DNA of 42,149 bases from an uncultured Desulfobacteraceae bacterium (lineage in GTDB: Bacteria > Desulfobacterota > Desulfobacteria > Desulfobacterales > Desulfatirhabdiaceae): NCBI GenBank assembly GCA_903953895.1, contig CAJBLH010000089.1, positions 1 through 42,149 on the forward strand, in the 5' to 3' direction. How positions within the stretch are numbered: position 1 is the first letter of the stretch; every line of letters starts with the position of its first letter. Shown here in pieces: positions 34,109 through 40,631 of the stretch. The notes below the pieces were generated by a model that searched no databases, was not told where the DNA came from, and was given only the letters and a program-made list of their open reading frames with translations. A program made the position numbers and the translations under genes.

Positions 34109-34465
34109 ATGACGCCATTAGTTGAAAAAGCGCTCAACGCCATTACGATCGGAACCAATTTATCCACCGGCCTGTCTTATCCCAGCGATATGCTTCGGGC
34201 CAAAGAAATGTTTCTCCGGCTGCATAAAGCCGGAGAGAAACTTTCAGCGGCTGAGATCAGCGCCTGGGCCAAACTGAACGGGTGGCAGGCAAAAGACGCC
34301 GATGAACTGGGCGCACTGGGTGAGCGAATCTGCCAGGGAGAAAAGGTGAAAATTTCCGATGGTCCCTGGTGGAACGAAAACATTCTGGATTTACTGATGC
34401 AAAATATTGCCATGACCAAGAATCGTCGGCCGGCCATAGACTGCTTTTCTCGCAACGCTGCATGA
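34109..34465 (+). CDS. Small protein resembling DUF1889/YoaC
   Basis: A 118-residue soluble protein with an AGGAGA site eight bases before the ATG. VEKALNAI near the start, AAEISAWAKLNGW in the middle and ICQGEKVKI later follow the pattern of E. coli YoaC (DUF1889: a VIDKALDFI-like start, SAADI.A.A..EGW, and a later GER.V.IK segment). Helical content is high and there is no signal peptide. The C-terminal 20 residues (NRRPAIDCFSRNAA) go beyond the family pattern. No function is known. It lies 37 bp before the STAS protein gene on the same strand, so it is probably part of the ABC transporter operon. My family call comes from remembered pattern, so it is moderate. Confidence 0.55.
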   Translation: MTPLVEKALNAITIGTNLSTGLSYPSDMLRAKEMFLRLHKAGEKLSAAEISAWAKLNGWQAKDADELGALGERICQGEKVKISDGPWWNENILDLLMQNIAMTKNRRPAIDCFSRNAA

Positions 34466-34502: not shown

Positions 34503-35723
34503 GTGATCGATATTGCCGTTACCACGGAAAACGGCCGGCCATGGGTCCGGCTTCACGGGCGGATCGACAGCATTACCGCGCCGGATGTGGAAAAATGCCT
34601 GAATGCGCTGATTTCGGGCGGCAGCAGAATGCTTGTTCTGGATATGCAGGCTGTTCATTACATGAGCAGTCTGGGCTTGCGGGTGTTGCTGATTGCGCAG
34701 AAACAGCTCAAAAAAGCGGATGGCGAGATTCTGATCTGCGGGCCGCCCCCTTCTGTTCTGGAATTGTTCGACATGAGCGGATTCAAGATGCTGTTCCGCA
34801 TATTTCCCACACAGGAAGTACTCCACGCAGAGCTTTCCGGTGATGCCATGGCTGTTTTGCAGGAGCAGATTGAGATCGATGGCATCCAACTGCAATGCAT
34901 TCGCAAGCCGGTCGGCGTCGGACAGCTTTCCGTGATCGGCAGCCAGGAAAAACTGGCCGATTCCCGATATGAAGCCTCGGATGTCGTCACGGTGAAAGCC
35001 GCTGATATTCAGTATGGCGCGGGATTGGCCTCCCTTGGGGATGATTTTGATGAATACAGGCTTTTTTTCGGGGAAGCTGTTATCCTGAATCACAGCCTGT
35101 TTTTTTATCCGGCGGTGAAACGGCCTGCCGTGGACTTTATGCTGTGTACCCAGGCCGCTGCGAATATTTCTTACCGTTTTCTTCATGGTTTTTCCTTTAC
35201 CGGCGCATTTTCTCACCTGATTTCTTTTGAAAGCATGGATCATCCGGTTGATCTGGATCAGCTCTCCCAGGCTTTGGGGCAAATTGTTTCAGGCAATGTG
35301 TTCGCCATGGTATTCATTGCCGAAAGTAAGGGTGTGTGGGGCATGCACATCAGACAGGTGCCGCTGGCGGAAAACCGGCCAGCCAATGGAAAAAATATTT
35401 TTGATCCGCTTAATTTCGCCGCCTGGATGAATTTTCCGGTGGAGCCCGCAGACATCCACCATATCCTGGCCGGGGCAGGGTTGGTGGTCAAGAATCCGGA
35501 ACTGGCGCCCCCGGCGGTACGGGATCTCTTTGCTACAGGAAGTCGCGTTCATTGCCATGCCGGCGTGTTCTCGAGAGAGCCGATCAGTAAAAAACCGGAT
35601 CAGTTTGAAAACGAACTCAAACGGGTGATCGCAGAGCTTCCGGTAGCCAAAGTACAGCATCTGATGGGGCAGTCCCGGTTTCAGCACGGCATTGTCGGTA
35701 TCGTGGAATTGGAAAACAGATAA
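34503..35723 (+). CDS. STAS-domain protein with unassigned C-terminal domain
   Basis: A 406-residue soluble protein starting at GTG 34503 (GAGGAA seven bases upstream). Residues 1-108 are a STAS domain of anti-sigma-factor-antagonist type: RPWVRLHGRIDSITAPDVEK, then LDMQAVHYMSSLGLRVLLIA, where the SSLGL segment carries the serine phosphorylated in SpoIIAA-like proteins, and ILICGPPPSVLELFDMSGF. The remaining 300 residues match no domain I know; blocks include LASLGDDFDEYRLFFGEAVI, FSFTGAFSHLISFESMDHPV and MVFIAESKGVWGMHIRQVP. The stop is immediately followed by the ATG of the fused ABC permease, so the two are translationally linked. Regulation of the transporter by a phosphorylation-controlled STAS switch is an inference. 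Confidence 0.75.
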   Translation: MIDIAVTTENGRPWVRLHGRIDSITAPDVEKCLNALISGGSRMLVLDMQAVHYMSSLGLRVLLIAQKQLKKADGEILICGPPPSVLELFDMSGFKMLFRIFPTQEVLHAELSGDAMAVLQEQIEIDGIQLQCIRKPVGVGQLSVIGSQEKLADSRYEASDVVTVKAADIQYGAGLASLGDDFDEYRLFFGEAVILNHSLFFYPAVKRPAVDFMLCTQAAANISYRFLHGFSFTGAFSHLISFESMDHPVDLDQLSQALGQIVSGNVFAMVFIAESKGVWGMHIRQVPLAENRPANGKNIFDPLNFAAWMNFPVEPADIHHILAGAGLVVKNPELAPPAVRDLFATGSRVHCHAGVFSREPISKKPDQFENELKRVIAELPVAKVQHLMGQSRFQHGIVGIVELENR

Positions 35724-38567
35724 ATGGAACTCTGGGTCGGCGCCCTGAATCTGGGTTTTTTATATGCTTTCATGACGATGGGGGTATTTATCACCTTCCG
35801 GATTCATGATTTTCCGGATATTACGGTGGACGGAAGTTTTACATCGGGTGCGGCGGCAACCGCGGTTCTGATTGCAGCCGGCTTCAACCCACCCGCAGCA
35901 CTTCTGGCCGGGATGCTCATCGGCATGGCCGCGGGCGCCGTCACAGCCTGGATTCATGCCAGACTCGATATCAACGGCCTGCTGGCCGGCATCCTGGTCA
36001 TGACGGGGCTGTATTCCGTCAACCTGCATGTCATGGGCCGGTCCAATATCCCTCTGCTGAATCAGGCCACCCTCTTTACCTGGATGCAGAAAATCAATCC
36101 CGGCATGCACGCCGAGATCTGGATCAGTTGCGTTCTGTGCGTGATTCTGGCGGTTTTCTGGCTGGGGATGTCCCTTTTCTTCAGAACCGATTTGGGTCTT
36201 TCCATGCGGGCCACAGGAAACAATCCGGTGATGGCGGCTGCCAACGGTGTCAACGTCAACCGGATGAAAATATTTGGAATCGCTCTGGCAAACGGGTTTG
36301 TGGGGCTTTCCGGCGGACTGGTGGCGCAGTATCAGGGATTTGCCGATATCGGCATGGGAATCGGGTCTGTGGTCATCGGGCTGGCTTCGGTCATTATCGG
36401 CGAGTCGATTCTGCGCAAGCCGTCGATCCATGTCAAAGTCATCGGTGTGATCATCGGATCCGTGGTGTTTCGATGGATGATCGCCTTTGCGCTATATGTC
36501 GGCATGAACCCCATCGATCTGAAACTGCTGACCGCCGGTTTTGTCCTGGCGACCCTGGTAATTTCAGGAGCTGTCGGCAAGCCGGAGTCCGCAAAAATGA
36601 CGTGGGCGGAGCGATTCAAGGCGGCGATTTCCCACAATCGCATGATGATCGCTGTGGGAGGCATCGTGATTCTGGCGATCAGCATTCCGGGCATCCGGGC
36701 GCTGTTGACCCATCGTCCGGATGCCGGAAAAATCCATCGGATCGGTATTGTTCAGATTGTGGATCACAGCATGTTGAATGTCACGCGGGATGCGTTTCTT
36801 GAAGAAATGAACCGTATCGGTTATCAGAGCGGGAAAAACTGCCTGTTTCAGGTGGAAAACGCCAATGGAGATATGTCTTCCGTGAACACGATTCTGGATA
36901 AATTCCTGGCGGACCGGATGGATGTGATCGTTCCCATCTCGACCGGATGCACGCAGGCCGCCATGCATAAGATCAAGGACCAGCCGATCGTGTTCGCCAC
37001 GGTCGCCAATCCCTTCATCATCGATGCCGGCCGGTCGGACACGGATCATTTGCCCAATGTCACCGGCGTGTACGGCTCTGTTCCTATGGATAAGGTACTT
37101 GAAATGGTCCGTCAGGTACGGAAGGGAAAAATCAGAATCGGCTCTATCTGGGATGCAGGCCAGGTCAATTCGGTTTACAATGTGGAGCAATTGAAGCAGG
37201 TTGTTCAGCAGGACGCGGATGTGGTTTTTGTCGGGGCCACGGTTACCGGTTCATCCGAGGTATTTCAGGCGGCGCAATCCTTGGCGCAGCAACAGATTGA
37301 CATGTTTGTGCTGGCGCCTGACAATATTGTGTATTCGGCGCTGGATTCGGTCATCAAGGTATCCGAATCTAAAAAAATTCCAATGGTTATAACCGATGTA
37401 GAGCGGCTGTCGGACGGAGCGCTGTGCGCACTCGGCTATGATTATGCCACCAGCGGAATACAGGCGGCGCATCTGGTGGACAGGATTTTGAAAGGGGAAT
37501 CTCCCGGGTCCATCCCGTTTGAAAAATATTCCCGGTTAACCATCGGCGTCAATCTGCGGGCTGCCCGGCAGATGGGAATTGCAATCCCGTCTGAGCTTCT
37601 GGACCGAACCACGGTCATTATTGCAGAAGATGGTAAGGTGGTGCAAAAAAAAGAATTGATCCACAAGGCTGTTCAGGCAAAACGGCTGGCCCTGTTTCAG
37701 TTCGGCGACAACGAGTTGATGAATCAGGCGGCCCATGGGGTGTTGGACGAACTGAAAGTGCAGGGGGTGATGGAGACATATCCGCTCCGGATCGACCGCA
37801 AGAATGCCCAGAACGAGTTTTATATGGCCCAGTCCATTGCCCAGGAAATCGTCAGTCAGAACTACGATTATATTGTGACACTCTCCACACCGGCCCTTCA
37901 GGTAACCGCGCAGGTCAATAAACTCATTCCCCATATTTTCGGTGCGGTCACGGATCCTTACCGGATGGGTATCGCCAAAACGCAGCAAGATCATATTCCC
38001 AACATTACCGGTGTGGCCACCTTTCAGCCGGTGGAAAAAACAATTCAGGTGATGCGGGAAATTTTTCCCCGCGCCCGGCGAATCGGAATTGTCTGGAATC
38101 CCGCCGAAGCCTGTTCCGAGGCATGTACTTATAAGGCACGAGATGAAGTCGGGAAACAGGGCTTCGAGCTGGTTGAAGTCAATGTCAGCAGCACCAGCGA
38201 AGTCATGGATGCGGTCAGGTCTCTGCTCACTCGCGGTGTGGACTTGTTTCTCACATCCGGAGACAATACGGTGAATATGGCGTTCAATTCCGTTGCCGCG
38301 CTGCTGCGTGAACGCCGTATCCCCTATTTTTCCAATTCGTTTTCCGATGTGGAACGTGGCGGCTTTATCGCCGTCGGTGCGGATTATGAGGAAGTCGGCC
38401 GTGAAACCGCCCGTATGGCCGCCCGCGTCATTTCCGGGGAAGATGTCGGCAGAATTCCCATCAACAATTATCTGCCCGAAAAAATGTATGTGAACCGGAT
38501 GCTGGCCAAGGAGTACGGGATGGAATTGCCCGAGGCGTTTTTGAACCGGGCTGCGAAAATCAGGTGA
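35724..38567 (+). CDS. ABC importer permease fused to two ABC_sub_bind (TrpX-like) substrate-binding domains
   Basis: A 947-residue protein. Residues 1-300 are a permease of the TrpY/branched-chain type with eight to ten helices, ITFRIHDFPDITVDGSFTSG near the start and the cytoplasmic coupling loop MRATGNNPVMAAANGVNVNR. A membrane anchor follows (about 312-331, MMIAVGGIVILAISIPGI). Then come two periplasmic binding domains of the ABC_sub_bind family: the first about 338-640 (HRIGIVQIVDHSMLN, PNVTGVYGSVPMDKVLEM), the second about 655-945 (LALFQFGDNELMNQAAHG, NITGVATFQPVEKTIQVM, ARRIGIVWNPAEACSEA). Separate genes are the usual arrangement; here one chain holds all three parts and no signal-peptide-bearing partner is needed. 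The substrate is unknown; aromatic amino acids are the best known case for relatives. It ends overlapping the ATPase gene. Confidence 0.88.
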   Translation: MELWVGALNLGFLYAFMTMGVFITFRIHDFPDITVDGSFTSGAAATAVLIAAGFNPPAALLAGMLIGMAAGAVTAWIHARLDINGLLAGILVMTGLYSVNLHVMGRSNIPLLNQATLFTWMQKINPGMHAEIWISCVLCVILAVFWLGMSLFFRTDLGLSMRATGNNPVMAAANGVNVNRMKIFGIALANGFVGLSGGLVAQYQGFADIGMGIGSVVIGLASVIIGESILRKPSIHVKVIGVIIGSVVFRWMIAFALYVGMNPIDLKLLTAGFVLATLVISGAVGKPESAKMTWAERFKAAISHNRMMIAVGGIVILAISIPGIRALLTHRPDAGKIHRIGIVQIVDHSMLNVTRDAFLEEMNRIGYQSGKNCLFQVENANGDMSSVNTILDKFLADRMDVIVPISTGCTQAAMHKIKDQPIVFATVANPFIIDAGRSDTDHLPNVTGVYGSVPMDKVLEMVRQVRKGKIRIGSIWDAGQVNSVYNVEQLKQVVQQDADVVFVGATVTGSSEVFQAAQSLAQQQIDMFVLAPDNIVYSALDSVIKVSESKKIPMVITDVERLSDGALCALGYDYATSGIQAAHLVDRILKGESPGSIPFEKYSRLTIGVNLRAARQMGIAIPSELLDRTTVIIAEDGKVVQKKELIHKAVQAKRLALFQFGDNELMNQAAHGVLDELKVQGVMETYPLRIDRKNAQNEFYMAQSIAQEIVSQNYDYIVTLSTPALQVTAQVNKLIPHIFGAVTDPYRMGIAKTQQDHIPNITGVATFQPVEKTIQVMREIFPRARRIGIVWNPAEACSEACTYKARDEVGKQGFELVEVNVSSTSEVMDAVRSLLTRGVDLFLTSGDNTVNMAFNSVAALLRERRIPYFSNSFSDVERGGFIAVGADYEEVGRETARMAARVISGEDVGRIPINNYLPEKMYVNRMLAKEYGMELPEAFLNRAAKIR

Positions 38568-38569
38568 CG

Positions 38570-39385
38570 ATGATGATAGAAATTTCAGGTCTGCACAAGA
38601 CGTTCAATGCAAACACCGTCAACGAAGTCCATGCCCTGAAGGGGATCAGTGTCGCCATCGCTCCCGGCGATTTCATAACCCTGATCGGCACCAACGGTTC
38701 CGGAAAATCCACGTTATTGAATGCTGTGGCCGGCTCTTTTTTGCCGGATCAGGGAAAAATCATCATCGATACGGAAGATGTAACCGCCAAAAAGGATTTT
38801 CAGCGGGCTAAATTCATGTCCCGCGTATTCCAGAACCCCTTTATGGGCACGGCCACCCAGATGACCATTGCCGAAAATCTGCATATCGCTTATCTCAGGG
38901 ATCAAGAATCCCTGCCCCGGATCAGGCTCGACAAAGCGCGTTGCGAGGCATACCGGGAGGCGGTCAAAGCCCTTGAAATGCAGATGGAAGACCGGCTCGA
39001 CAATATCATCGGGTCGCTGTCCGGCGGGCAGCGGCAGGCGCTCACCCTGCTGATGGCAGTTTTGCGCAGGCCCAAGGTGCTGCTGCTGGATGAACACACC
39101 GCCGCCCTCGATCCCAAATCCGCCAATCAGGTGATCCGGCTGACCCAGAACTTTGTGGAACAGGGAAATCTGACAACCCTGATGGTTACCCACAGCATGC
39201 AGCAGGCGCTTCAGGTCGGTAACCGCACCATCATGATGAACAAGGGAGAAATCATCGACGATATTTCCCTGAAAGAAAAACAGCGGTTGACCGCAAGCGA
39301 TTTGCTCGACAAGTTTGCGGATCTGCGCAAAAGCGAACGTTTGACCGATGAGATGCTGGAGGAATTGCGGCGGGAATATATTTGA
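38570..39385 (+). CDS. ABC transporter ATP-binding protein, partner of the fused permease
   Basis: An approximately 271-residue ATPase. Walker A is GTNGSGKSTLL, the Q-loop is in SRVFQNPFMGTATQMTIAENL, the signature is SLSGGQRQALTL, Walker B is KVLLLDEHTAALD and the H-loop is in MVTHSMQ. The Walker B region has EHTAALD with His after the catalytic Glu, the pattern also seen in TrpZ-like and branched-chain-type ATPases. Three in-frame starts are possible: a GTG at 38564 overlapping the permease stop, and ATG at 38570 or 38573; I use 38570. Translation is coupled to the upstream gene. A C-terminal tail (LTASDLLDKFADLRKSERLT) lies beyond the core. It powers the transporter encoded at 35724-38567. 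Confidence 0.93.
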   Translation: MMIEISGLHKTFNANTVNEVHALKGISVAIAPGDFITLIGTNGSGKSTLLNAVAGSFLPDQGKIIIDTEDVTAKKDFQRAKFMSRVFQNPFMGTATQMTIAENLHIAYLRDQESLPRIRLDKARCEAYREAVKALEMQMEDRLDNIIGSLSGGQRQALTLLMAVLRRPKVLLLDEHTAALDPKSANQVIRLTQNFVEQGNLTTLMVTHSMQQALQVGNRTIMMNKGEIIDDISLKEKQRLTASDLLDKFADLRKSERLTDEMLEELRREYI

Positions 39386-39467: not shown

Positions 39468-40631
39468 ATGAAGAAAAAATGGGTGGCTGCTGGCTTGGTA
39501 TTGTCGGTATTTCTGATGGTCGGAATGGGTTATGGTGCGGAGCCTATCAAGATCGGTGCGTTTTTCGATCTGTCAGGGCCGTCTTCGGCGATCGGAACTC
39601 CGACCAAGCTGGTGGCGGAGATGGTTGTGAAAAAAATCAACGATGAGGGGGGTATCAACGGCGTTCCTCTGCAACTTGTGGTTGCGGATGACGAGGGAGA
39701 TCCCACGAAAGCGGCGCTGATTGCCAAGAAATTTGCCGAATCCGATAAAGTCGTAGCCATCATCGGCCCCACGCGGACCGACACCGGAATGGCGGCAAAG
39801 CCGACTGTCGAACAGATGAAGATACCCACATTCATGACGGTCGGTGGAGATCCGGTGATTGCCGGCGGTAAATTCGGACCGTTTCACTGGACCTTCAAGT
39901 CTCCGCAGCGGACAACGATTGCCGTTAAAAAAATCTATACCTACCTGAAACAGAAAGGCATGCAGAAAATCGCCATTCTGACGGCGGCCGATGGTTTCGG
40001 CAAGGATGGAAAGGTTGCACTGGAAACCCTTGCTGCGGAATACGGGATTCAGATTATGGCCGCTGAATCCTTTCAGGCAACGGACAGCGATATGACAGCA
40101 CAGCTCATCAATATCAAGACAGCCGCGCCGGATGCCGTCATCTGCTGGACCATCGGCAAGGCCGGCTCGATTGTGGCCAAGAATGTCAAGCAACTCGGCA
40201 TTCAGGTTCCGCTGTTCCAGTGCCACGGGCTTCCGGACCCCAAATACATCGAACTGGCCGGAAAGGCGTCTGAAGGCAATATCATGCCCTCCACGAAACT
40301 CATGGTGGCTTCTCAGCTTCCGGATACCGATCCCCAGAAAAAAGTCATTCTGGAGTTCATTCGCCTGTATCAGGACGTCTTTCATTATGACCGGCAGTTT
40401 CCCATCAACACCCACTCCGGCTATGCCTGGGATGCGATTTATATGGTCGCCGACGCCATGAAAAAAGCCGGCACAGACAATGAAAAGCTTCGGGATGCCA
40501 TTGAAAAGACCACGGGTTATGTCGGTGTCAGCGGCATATACAACATCACGCCCGAAGACCACAACGGGCTGGGCGTGGACTCCATGGTTCTGGTTCAAAT
40601 CGTGGATGGTCAGTGGAAACTCCTGCAATAG
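39468..40631 (+). CDS. LivK-type (type I) periplasmic substrate-binding protein of an ABC transporter
   Basis: A 387-residue protein with a signal peptide (residues 1-23, ending GYGA) and the Peripla_BP_6 fold: IKIGAFFDLSGPSSAIGTPT, INDEGGINGVPLQLVVADDE, DPTKAALIAKKFAESDKVVAIIGP and HSGYAWDAIYMVADAM. It binds amino acids or related small carboxylates outside the membrane. AAAGGGGGA lies seven bases before the ATG. No LivH/LivM permease is nearby; the only permease is the upstream fusion, whose own binding domains are of another family. It might serve a distant Liv system or extend the substrate range of the local one. In bacteria that degrade aromatics, close relatives often bind aromatic acids, which would fit the bam genes, but this is conjecture. 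Confidence 0.9.
   Translation: MKKKWVAAGLVLSVFLMVGMGYGAEPIKIGAFFDLSGPSSAIGTPTKLVAEMVVKKINDEGGINGVPLQLVVADDEGDPTKAALIAKKFAESDKVVAIIGPTRTDTGMAAKPTVEQMKIPTFMTVGGDPVIAGGKFGPFHWTFKSPQRTTIAVKKIYTYLKQKGMQKIAILTAADGFGKDGKVALETLAAEYGIQIMAAESFQATDSDMTAQLINIKTAAPDAVICWTIGKAGSIVAKNVKQLGIQVPLFQCHGLPDPKYIELAGKASEGNIMPSTKLMVASQLPDTDPQKKVILEFIRLYQDVFHYDRQFPINTHSGYAWDAIYMVADAMKKAGTDNEKLRDAIEKTTGYVGVSGIYNITPEDHNGLGVDSMVLVQIVDGQWKLLQ

Follow-up and report, generated by a model that had tools for sequence, protein, structure and literature searches.

Within the 42,149-nucleotide stretch of contig CAJBLH010000089.1 from an uncultured Desulfobacteraceae bacterium (assembly GCA_903953895.1; hereafter the window, meaning the whole stretch), three genes are taken here together as one unit: a gene for a STAS-domain protein designated STAS-X, a gene for a chain in which a TrpY-like permease is fused to two TrpX-fold substrate-binding domains, and a gene for a TrpZ-like ATPase of the ATP-binding cassette (ABC) type (Table 1). 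The fusion recurs across phyla, its binding domains fall into separate classes with an altered ligand pocket, and the ATPases of such systems share a C-terminal tail that is missing from their ordinary counterparts. STAS-X, in turn, carries an invariant serine and is a near-constant partner of these transporters. The unit could encode a multi-receptor importer with its ATPase under the control of STAS-X, much as MlaB controls MlaF, a reading which we regard as evenly balanced between right and wrong.

Table 1 Features of the three-gene unit in the window.
Feature	Position	Strand	Basis
STAS-X gene, 406 residues, GTG start	34503..35723	+	Pfam STAS, E 4e-20
Ser56 codon of STAS-X	34668..34670	+	alignment to 1auz/1th8
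Domain X	34827..35720	+	alignment of 24 STAS-X proteins
Fused permease and two substrate-binding domains, 947 residues	35724..38567	+	single open frame
Permease domain BPD_transp_2, residues 6-275	35739..36548	+	Pfam, E 1.3e-26
Extra membrane helix/anchor (predicted), ~residues 301-327	36624..36704	+	hydropathy scan
Substrate-binding domain, class a, residues 336-633	36729..37622	+	Pfam and class tree
Substrate-binding domain, class c, residues 651-947	37674..38564	+	Pfam and class tree
ABC ATPase (TrpZ-like), 273 residues from first GTG	38564..39385	+	Pfam ABC_tran, E 2.8e-28
ATPase C-terminal tail, ~residues 246-273, ends LRREYI	39299..39382	+	tail alignment

The fused permease-receptor chain

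The fusion is encoded by a frame of 947 codons with an ATG start and no internal stop. ABC_sub_bind was matched twice in the chain (Pfam, E 5.6e-106 for the whole protein), with the profile stretches at 36741-37610 and 37695-38558 on the DNA, and both domains belong to this family, PF04392, their scores of 182.9 and 177.8 bits lying well above the curated cut-off of 25.9. Apart from BPD_transp_2, ABC_sub_bind and a weaker overlapping Peripla_BP_4 match, no Pfam family was found in the chain. Between the permease and the first binding domain, a loop with four Lys/Arg and two Asp/Glu residues (283-300) precedes an extra hydrophobic helix, and the two together are expected to form an anchor that would carry both binding domains to the outer side of the membrane. 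The helix was called by a simple hydropathy scan with a peak threshold of 1.6, a value reached in 16 of the 19 complete fused proteins, with the peaks in L093 (1.59), L097 (1.57) and L099 (1.43) falling below it. An earlier reading of the DNA from its letters (the sequence-only reading) had described one chain with a TrpY-like permease, an anchor and two unlike binding domains, on which Pfam, the hydropathy scan and the class tree all agree, and the split points it proposed at about residues 335 and 650 suit the layout of the chain. Since each chain carries two unlike TrpX-family domains, a homodimer would, as had been anticipated, display four of them. The best sequence matches of each binding domain in the PDB are 3lkv, 6hni and 3lft, and a fold search with the modelled domains returned 3lkv, 6hnj, 3lft and 6hni on top (template-modelling score to the target 0.81-0.88); in the predicted model of the fusion the permease part is poor and the binding domains are fair, and the search was made with the binding domains alone.

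Sixteen of the 395 sampled genomes of the same phylum match the chain at E <= 1e-75, and 15 of these matches are fusions (that of G273 being cut by a contig end), the remaining one being an unfused three-domain array in G262. The phylum of an Aminicenantes genome gave five matches in 297 genomes, three of them fused, and that of a KSB1 genome three in 82, all fused. Complete full-length fused copies recur at 50-69% identity, and one of the fusions is located in a genome consisting of one single contig (G108). Fusions with three binding domains are found in Aminicenantes, KSB1 and Thermodesulfobacteriota, one case each, with the Thermodesulfobacteriota case sharing its contig coordinates with G296. 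Closer to the window, the fusion is present in four of 94 genomes of relatives, all of them of the window's genus (one cut and one frameshifted), and three further congeners in that set gave no such match; 17 genomes of the order have a full-length separate TrpY-like match, so that separate genes prevail in that group. When the window is compared with the congener G004, the ratio of nonsynonymous to synonymous substitution rates is 0.158, 0.130 and 0.130 for the three domains, which corresponds to purifying selection, and the two linkers have diverged to 29% and 40% identity. In a plasmid search 70 records matched; among the ten shown, binding protein and permease are encoded by separate genes in six, and in four no gene is listed at that place. 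The architecture singled out by the sequence-only reading recurs and is no lone curiosity: it stands among one- and three-domain relatives and unfused arrays of up to four domains. A sequencing or assembly artefact that joined separate genes, as might be feared from the 315 contigs of the window's assembly and the frameshifted copy of the fusion in G002, is practically impossible and was rejected, because the identical fusion occurs in many independent assemblies, the one-contig genome included, and purifying selection extends through all of its domains.

Binding-domain classes and the ligand pocket

The number of binding domains per chain is variable. Among the 23 fused loci, 19 have complete frames, of which 12 encode two domains, four encode three and three encode one, and the double version, the prevalence of which the sequence-only reading had left to be counted, is therefore the commonest. 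In one of the 12, that of G098, the last domain is shortened by an early stop; the incomplete loci, due to contig ends or a frameshift, are those of G002, G003, G273 and G809. In a tree of 62 domain rows, the fused domains form three starred clades, a, b and c, which follow each other in the same a-b-c order along each chain and are split from stand-alone TrpX-like proteins by a 100/100 branch (the tree leaves aside L116, both rows of L094, L010, L012, L024, L032, weak rows and the four-domain arrays). The chain in the window is of the a+c type, and its two domains, belonging to separate starred clades, are clearly different, while a+b, b+c, a-only and c-only chains exist in other genomes. The fused permeases constitute one clade of the permease tree, within which the chain types a, c, ab, ac, bc and abc are intermixed (L094, L102, L112 and L117 are not part of this tree, and L101 is labelled stand-alone in it even though it comes from an unfused array). 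Such mixing implies that domains have been repeatedly lost or gained; as far as the tree can tell, repeated change of the domain set is clear, and the direction in which a, b and c were gained or lost is not given by it.

Two loci differ in their layout. Genome G002 (L115, L116) has one frameshifted a+c fusion and a second copy at a contig end, which resembles the one-domain (a) version and has its ATPase gene in two frames. In L094 (6873-10084) and L096 (4130-7326), both of one genus, three extra genes are inserted between the fusion and the ATPase gene; in a Pfam scan of L094 two of these have no assignment and one has a weak ParA-like match.

The overall fold of the binding domains is that of TrpX, as the sequence-only reading had it, but the pocket is not. 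In TrpX-type proteins the ligand is contacted by T108, A127, T129, D152 and N233 (Streptococcus suis numbering; PMC9382623), and the three solved proteins described in PMC6816091 share their mode of binding the amino and acid groups; Asp152 would serve the amino group. Position 108 in the 41 fused domains scored is Thr in 38 and Ser in three, and Asn233 is likewise retained in 39 of 41; Ala127 is found in six and Thr129 in 15 of them. Asp152, in turn, is present in 0/41, its place being taken by Gly, Cys and Thr in classes a, b and c, respectively, whereas it is kept in all three PDB chains and in 17/17 closer stand-alone relatives of the order, a figure that covers the closer TrpX-like proteins extracted from the loci of the 94 relatives. 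The residue is also absent from the four distant stand-alone proteins (weak, under 150 bits), is found in two of 15 unfused-array domains and is kept in a free binding protein beside the G839 operon. Partial domains (L102, L112, L117 and the broken second domain of L115) are not part of the residue table. The chain also stays below the NCBIfam TrpX equivalog NF041285, at 348.7 bits against a cut-off of 390 (whole protein, two matched stretches). Because Asp152 is absent, the ligands of the fused domains are, judging from the residues, probably not simple aromatic alpha-amino acids, and each of the three classes should have a pocket unlike those of the other two. A tryptophan importer was considered and judged unlikely in view of the missing Asp152. 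Two ligand classes for a two-domain chain, as suggested by the sequence-only reading, are plausible; for co-operative delivery, its other suggestion, no evidence was found, and GlnPQ, an importer with tandem domains, is reported to show no co-operativity (PMC8025302).

The STAS-X partner and the ATPase tail

The operon as seen in the sequence-only reading lacked the gene adjacent to the fusion on its upstream side. STAS-X abuts the start of the fusion with no gap and on the same strand, and consists of a STAS domain (approximately residues 1-106) followed by a 298-residue domain X. It is taken to be cytoplasmic, since no signal sequence was recognized by eye. Ser56 is invariant in all 24 aligned STAS-X proteins and aligns with the phospho-acceptor serine of SpoIIAA, and in domain X the invariant residues are the FGE motif at 189-191, Asp211, Glu274, His350, His352 and His386. 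Three X domains gave no Pfam match at E 0.5, and when the 24 STAS-X proteins were scanned with a limit of E 1, families other than STAS were each found in two members at most (best E 0.094). Nor was there an NCBIfam match outside STAS at 0.001 or, by profile, a significant PDB relative beyond STAS (8vxq, at E 0.12, is not significant).

Altogether 36 STAS-X loci, met in batches of 19, 2, 11 and 4, are present in 34 genomes: 23 with a fusion, 11 with an unfused array, one without a binding domain and one orphan. In 35 of the 36, distributed over three phyla, STAS-X adjoins a permease and/or a binding-domain array of the same kind. Of the 94 relatives only five contain domain X, namely G007 and the four that carry the fusion, and it is absent from the 17 with an ordinary full-length TrpY-like match. 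The STAS-X-linked permeases and ordinary TrpY proteins likewise lie on opposite sides of a 100/99 branch of the permease tree, with the caveat that long branches meet there. The unfused loci, found via a search with domain X, have the order array, STAS-X, permease, ATPase. Their arrays contain one domain in G732, two in G504, G521, G546, G666, G720, G825 (where the contig ends before any permease would show) and the second locus of G499, three in G262, and four in G272 and G413, the latter a one-contig genome. The four-domain arrays (L138, 2169-5933, and L137, 7452-11219 on the minus strand), from two genomes of one genus, are proteins of about 1255 residues with tandem ABC_sub_bind domains that are membrane-anchored or exported. 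A second copy in G540 comprises STAS-X, permease and ATPase genes, with no binding domain found. Outside the STAS-X loci, two long-looking stand-alone frames, in G053 and G092, proved to be single-domain genes, as did that of G042, no wider search for tandem domains without STAS-X having been made.

The ATPase keeps its usual motifs, as judged by eye. Its frame opens at a GTG at 38564, which would give a four-base overlap with the stop codon of the fusion if it is the start codon; the ATPase of a congener starts at the equivalent of 38573, and with that start there is no overlap. The three genes may be co-transcribed. The C-terminal tail with an L-x3-Y motif is present in 29/29 ATPases extracted from STAS-X systems, counted over the loci with a complete ATPase end in the stretch, and in 0/18 of those beside ordinary TrpX/TrpY genes; L107 continues for six residues past the motif, and in L116 the ATPase lies in two frames. 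According to PMC7367683, the C-terminal extension of MlaF docks at the interface with MlaB via a tyrosine and two leucines, MlaB binds MlaF with its phospho-site position Thr52 at that interface, and without MlaB the ATPase is not stably seated on the permease. The likeness of the tail to that of MlaF would be one of function, and not necessarily of homology.

RsbW-like kinase genes are found in five of the 38 stretches around the loci (L034, L101, L102, L105 and L160). In 4/18 genomes the operon has a kinase gene at a distance of no more than 2.5 kb, compared with about 0.24 expected by chance (106 matches in 79.4 Mb, 10 kb per locus), although the distance was chosen post hoc and some contigs are short; the scan covered 18 of the 34 STAS-X genomes, all 18 of which have PF13581 somewhere in the genome. 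The operon is adjoined by genes for a STAS protein, an RsbW-like kinase and a Cache-HAMP-SpoIIE protein in G397, for a kinase, a STAS protein and a GAF-SpoIIE protein in G262, for a kinase-GNAT fusion, a STAS protein and a Cache-MCP receptor in G273, and for a kinase and a STAS protein in G504. In G476 kinase and STAS genes are located downstream, and a Cache-HAMP-SpoIIE gene upstream on a contig ending in STAS-X. The orphan STAS-X gene of G007 (L136, 6338-8600) has as its neighbour a gene related to the GNAT part of the G273 fusion (24% identity, E 2e-17), itself without a Pfam match, a possible clue to a partner of STAS-X. Genes for an NMT1-type binding protein and a Cache-HAMP-SpoIIE phosphatase, approximately 61-62% identical, stand beside the operon in two phyla (L105, 1976-4886 on the minus strand, and L118, 6355-9382), which suggests transfer of a whole island.

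Mechanism, alternatives and relation to known systems

In the proposed mechanism, the proteins would assemble into a homodimeric TrpXYZ-like ABC importer with a permease that bears its own tethered receptor array. Class a would be positioned next to the membrane and class c outermost, giving four receptors per dimer, or six in the a-b-c relatives. With its own pocket in each class, the array could capture two or three different small ligands and feed them into one channel, in a manner likened to the two-domain GlnPQ. From the cytoplasmic side STAS-X would dock on the ATPase, assisted by the special tail, and thereby decide on the assembly or activity of the transporter, in the way MlaB acts on MlaF, and its conserved serine would permit a kinase of the RsbW type and a phosphatase of the SpoIIE type to control it. 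The near-constant position of STAS-X beside these importers suggests that uptake can be switched on and off. The fusion, the domain classes, the constancy of the operon, the altered pocket, the tail and the serine are established, and the regulation and the ligands are inferred.

Several points weigh against such a mechanism. The contact between STAS-X and the ATPase is a putative one, and the AlphaFold model of STAS-X, built with three sequences, is of low confidence (predicted local distance difference test score 44.8). The tail could be the mark of one lineage instead of an interface. It exceeds those of ordinary neighbours by some 5-10 residues only, compared to approximately 25 in the MlaF extension, deletion of which did not abolish MlaB binding (PMC7367683). 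The STAS-X gene of G406 is broken by a stop codon, and that of G007 has no transporter adjoining. Finally, 33 of the 38 stretches searched gave no kinase gene, and the window has neither a kinase nor a SpoIIE match.

The permease and ATPase of normal TrpYZ type would also suit an ordinary multi-substrate amino-acid importer, in which the fusion raises the local receptor concentration, tethering by itself being of use in GlnPQ and OpuA (PMC8025302, PMC11065425), and STAS-X regulates something else encoded alongside. The persistence of STAS-X at the transporter in fused and unfused loci of three phyla and the absence of the canonical aspartate from all fused domains scored disagree with this explanation, which we hold to be somewhat improbable. 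Still less probable, though worth considering, is a sensing complex that imports no nutrient, in which liganded domains would signal via the permease and ATPase to STAS-X and on to a partner-switching cascade of RsbW kinase and SpoIIE phosphatase. The invariant Ser56 would fit such a role, as would the genes that adjoin the operon, for kinase, STAS and SpoIIE proteins in G397 and G262 and for kinase and STAS proteins in G273, G476 and G504, together with the upstream SpoIIE gene in G476 and the GNAT-like neighbour of the orphan STAS-X in G007; however, the kinase was not found in most stretches, the window included, and the usual ATPase motifs together with pockets in the binding domains lead one to expect transport. 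The importer regulated by STAS-X could also be put in wider terms, as a new class of multi-receptor ABC importers gated by STAS proteins, in which interchangeable arrays of one to four TrpX-fold receptors, in at least three phyla, feed a TrpY channel and a phospho-switchable STAS-X clamps or releases the ATPase via a dedicated tail, the uptake of several ligands being tied into a partner-switching cascade or reporting to it; this formulation is tentative and rather doubtful.

The same domain families, PF04392 and PF02653, make up the TrpXYZ importers, represented by TrpX of S. suis and S. pneumoniae, CD0873 of Clostridioides difficile and VC_1101. Unlike in those, one to three receptors are here fused to the permease, the ligand-binding Asp is changed to Gly, Cys or Thr, and a STAS-X gene and a longer ATPase tail are present. 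The permease and binding-domain families of GlnPQ and OpuA differ from BPD_transp_2 and ABC_sub_bind. Nevertheless, the arrangement resembles these importers in having the binding domains C-terminal on the permease chain with short linkers, in a chain that would form a homodimer, and resembles GlnPQ also in the two unlike binding domains per chain and the separate ATPase (PMC8025302). The number of domains, one to three when fused and up to four in unfused arrays, sets the present systems apart from both, and no STAS partner features in the available part of the GlnPQ account (PMC8025302). MlaFEDB offers a parallel for a STAS protein encoded with an ABC transporter, for a Ser/Thr at the STAS phospho-site and perhaps for an ATPase with an unusual C-terminal tail (PMC7367683, PMC7790496), but the cargo of Mla is lipid, moved with the aid of MCE proteins and MlaE and not by a TrpY-type importer, and its STAS protein is not joined to the new domain X. 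The conserved acceptor serine and the sometimes adjacent kinase and phosphatase genes are likewise reminiscent of the SpoIIAA/RsbV, RsbW and SpoIIE modules, which differ by lacking domain X and the near-constant link to an importer.

The open-access literature gave, among the matches listed, no description of the operon, which is weak evidence of novelty, and the bare domain architecture may well be already present in public domain databases. The authors of the MlaFB structure report that they found no other PDB entry with both STAS and ABC domains, and mention the effect of the SLC26 STAS domain on CFTR (PMC7367683). The operon bears on how broadly STAS domains regulate ABC transporters, and the regulated importer, if true, would show that in bacteria a STAS protein can control an ABC importer that does not belong to the lipid systems of the Mla/MCE kind. 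STAS-X and the importer stay together through large rearrangements, and the candidate docking tail and the conserved phospho-site open the proposal to direct tests. Likewise, the purpose of tandem receptors could be studied on the natural series, which runs from one to four receptors and includes fused and unfused forms.

Two further genes flank the unit in the window. Closely downstream of the ATPase and on the same strand, a gene for a Peripla_BP_6 (LivK-like) binding protein was identified with Pfam at 39468-40631. Just upstream of STAS-X, a small open reading frame (34109-34465, plus strand) matches DUF1889, a family known from enterobacteria, at E 2e-8.

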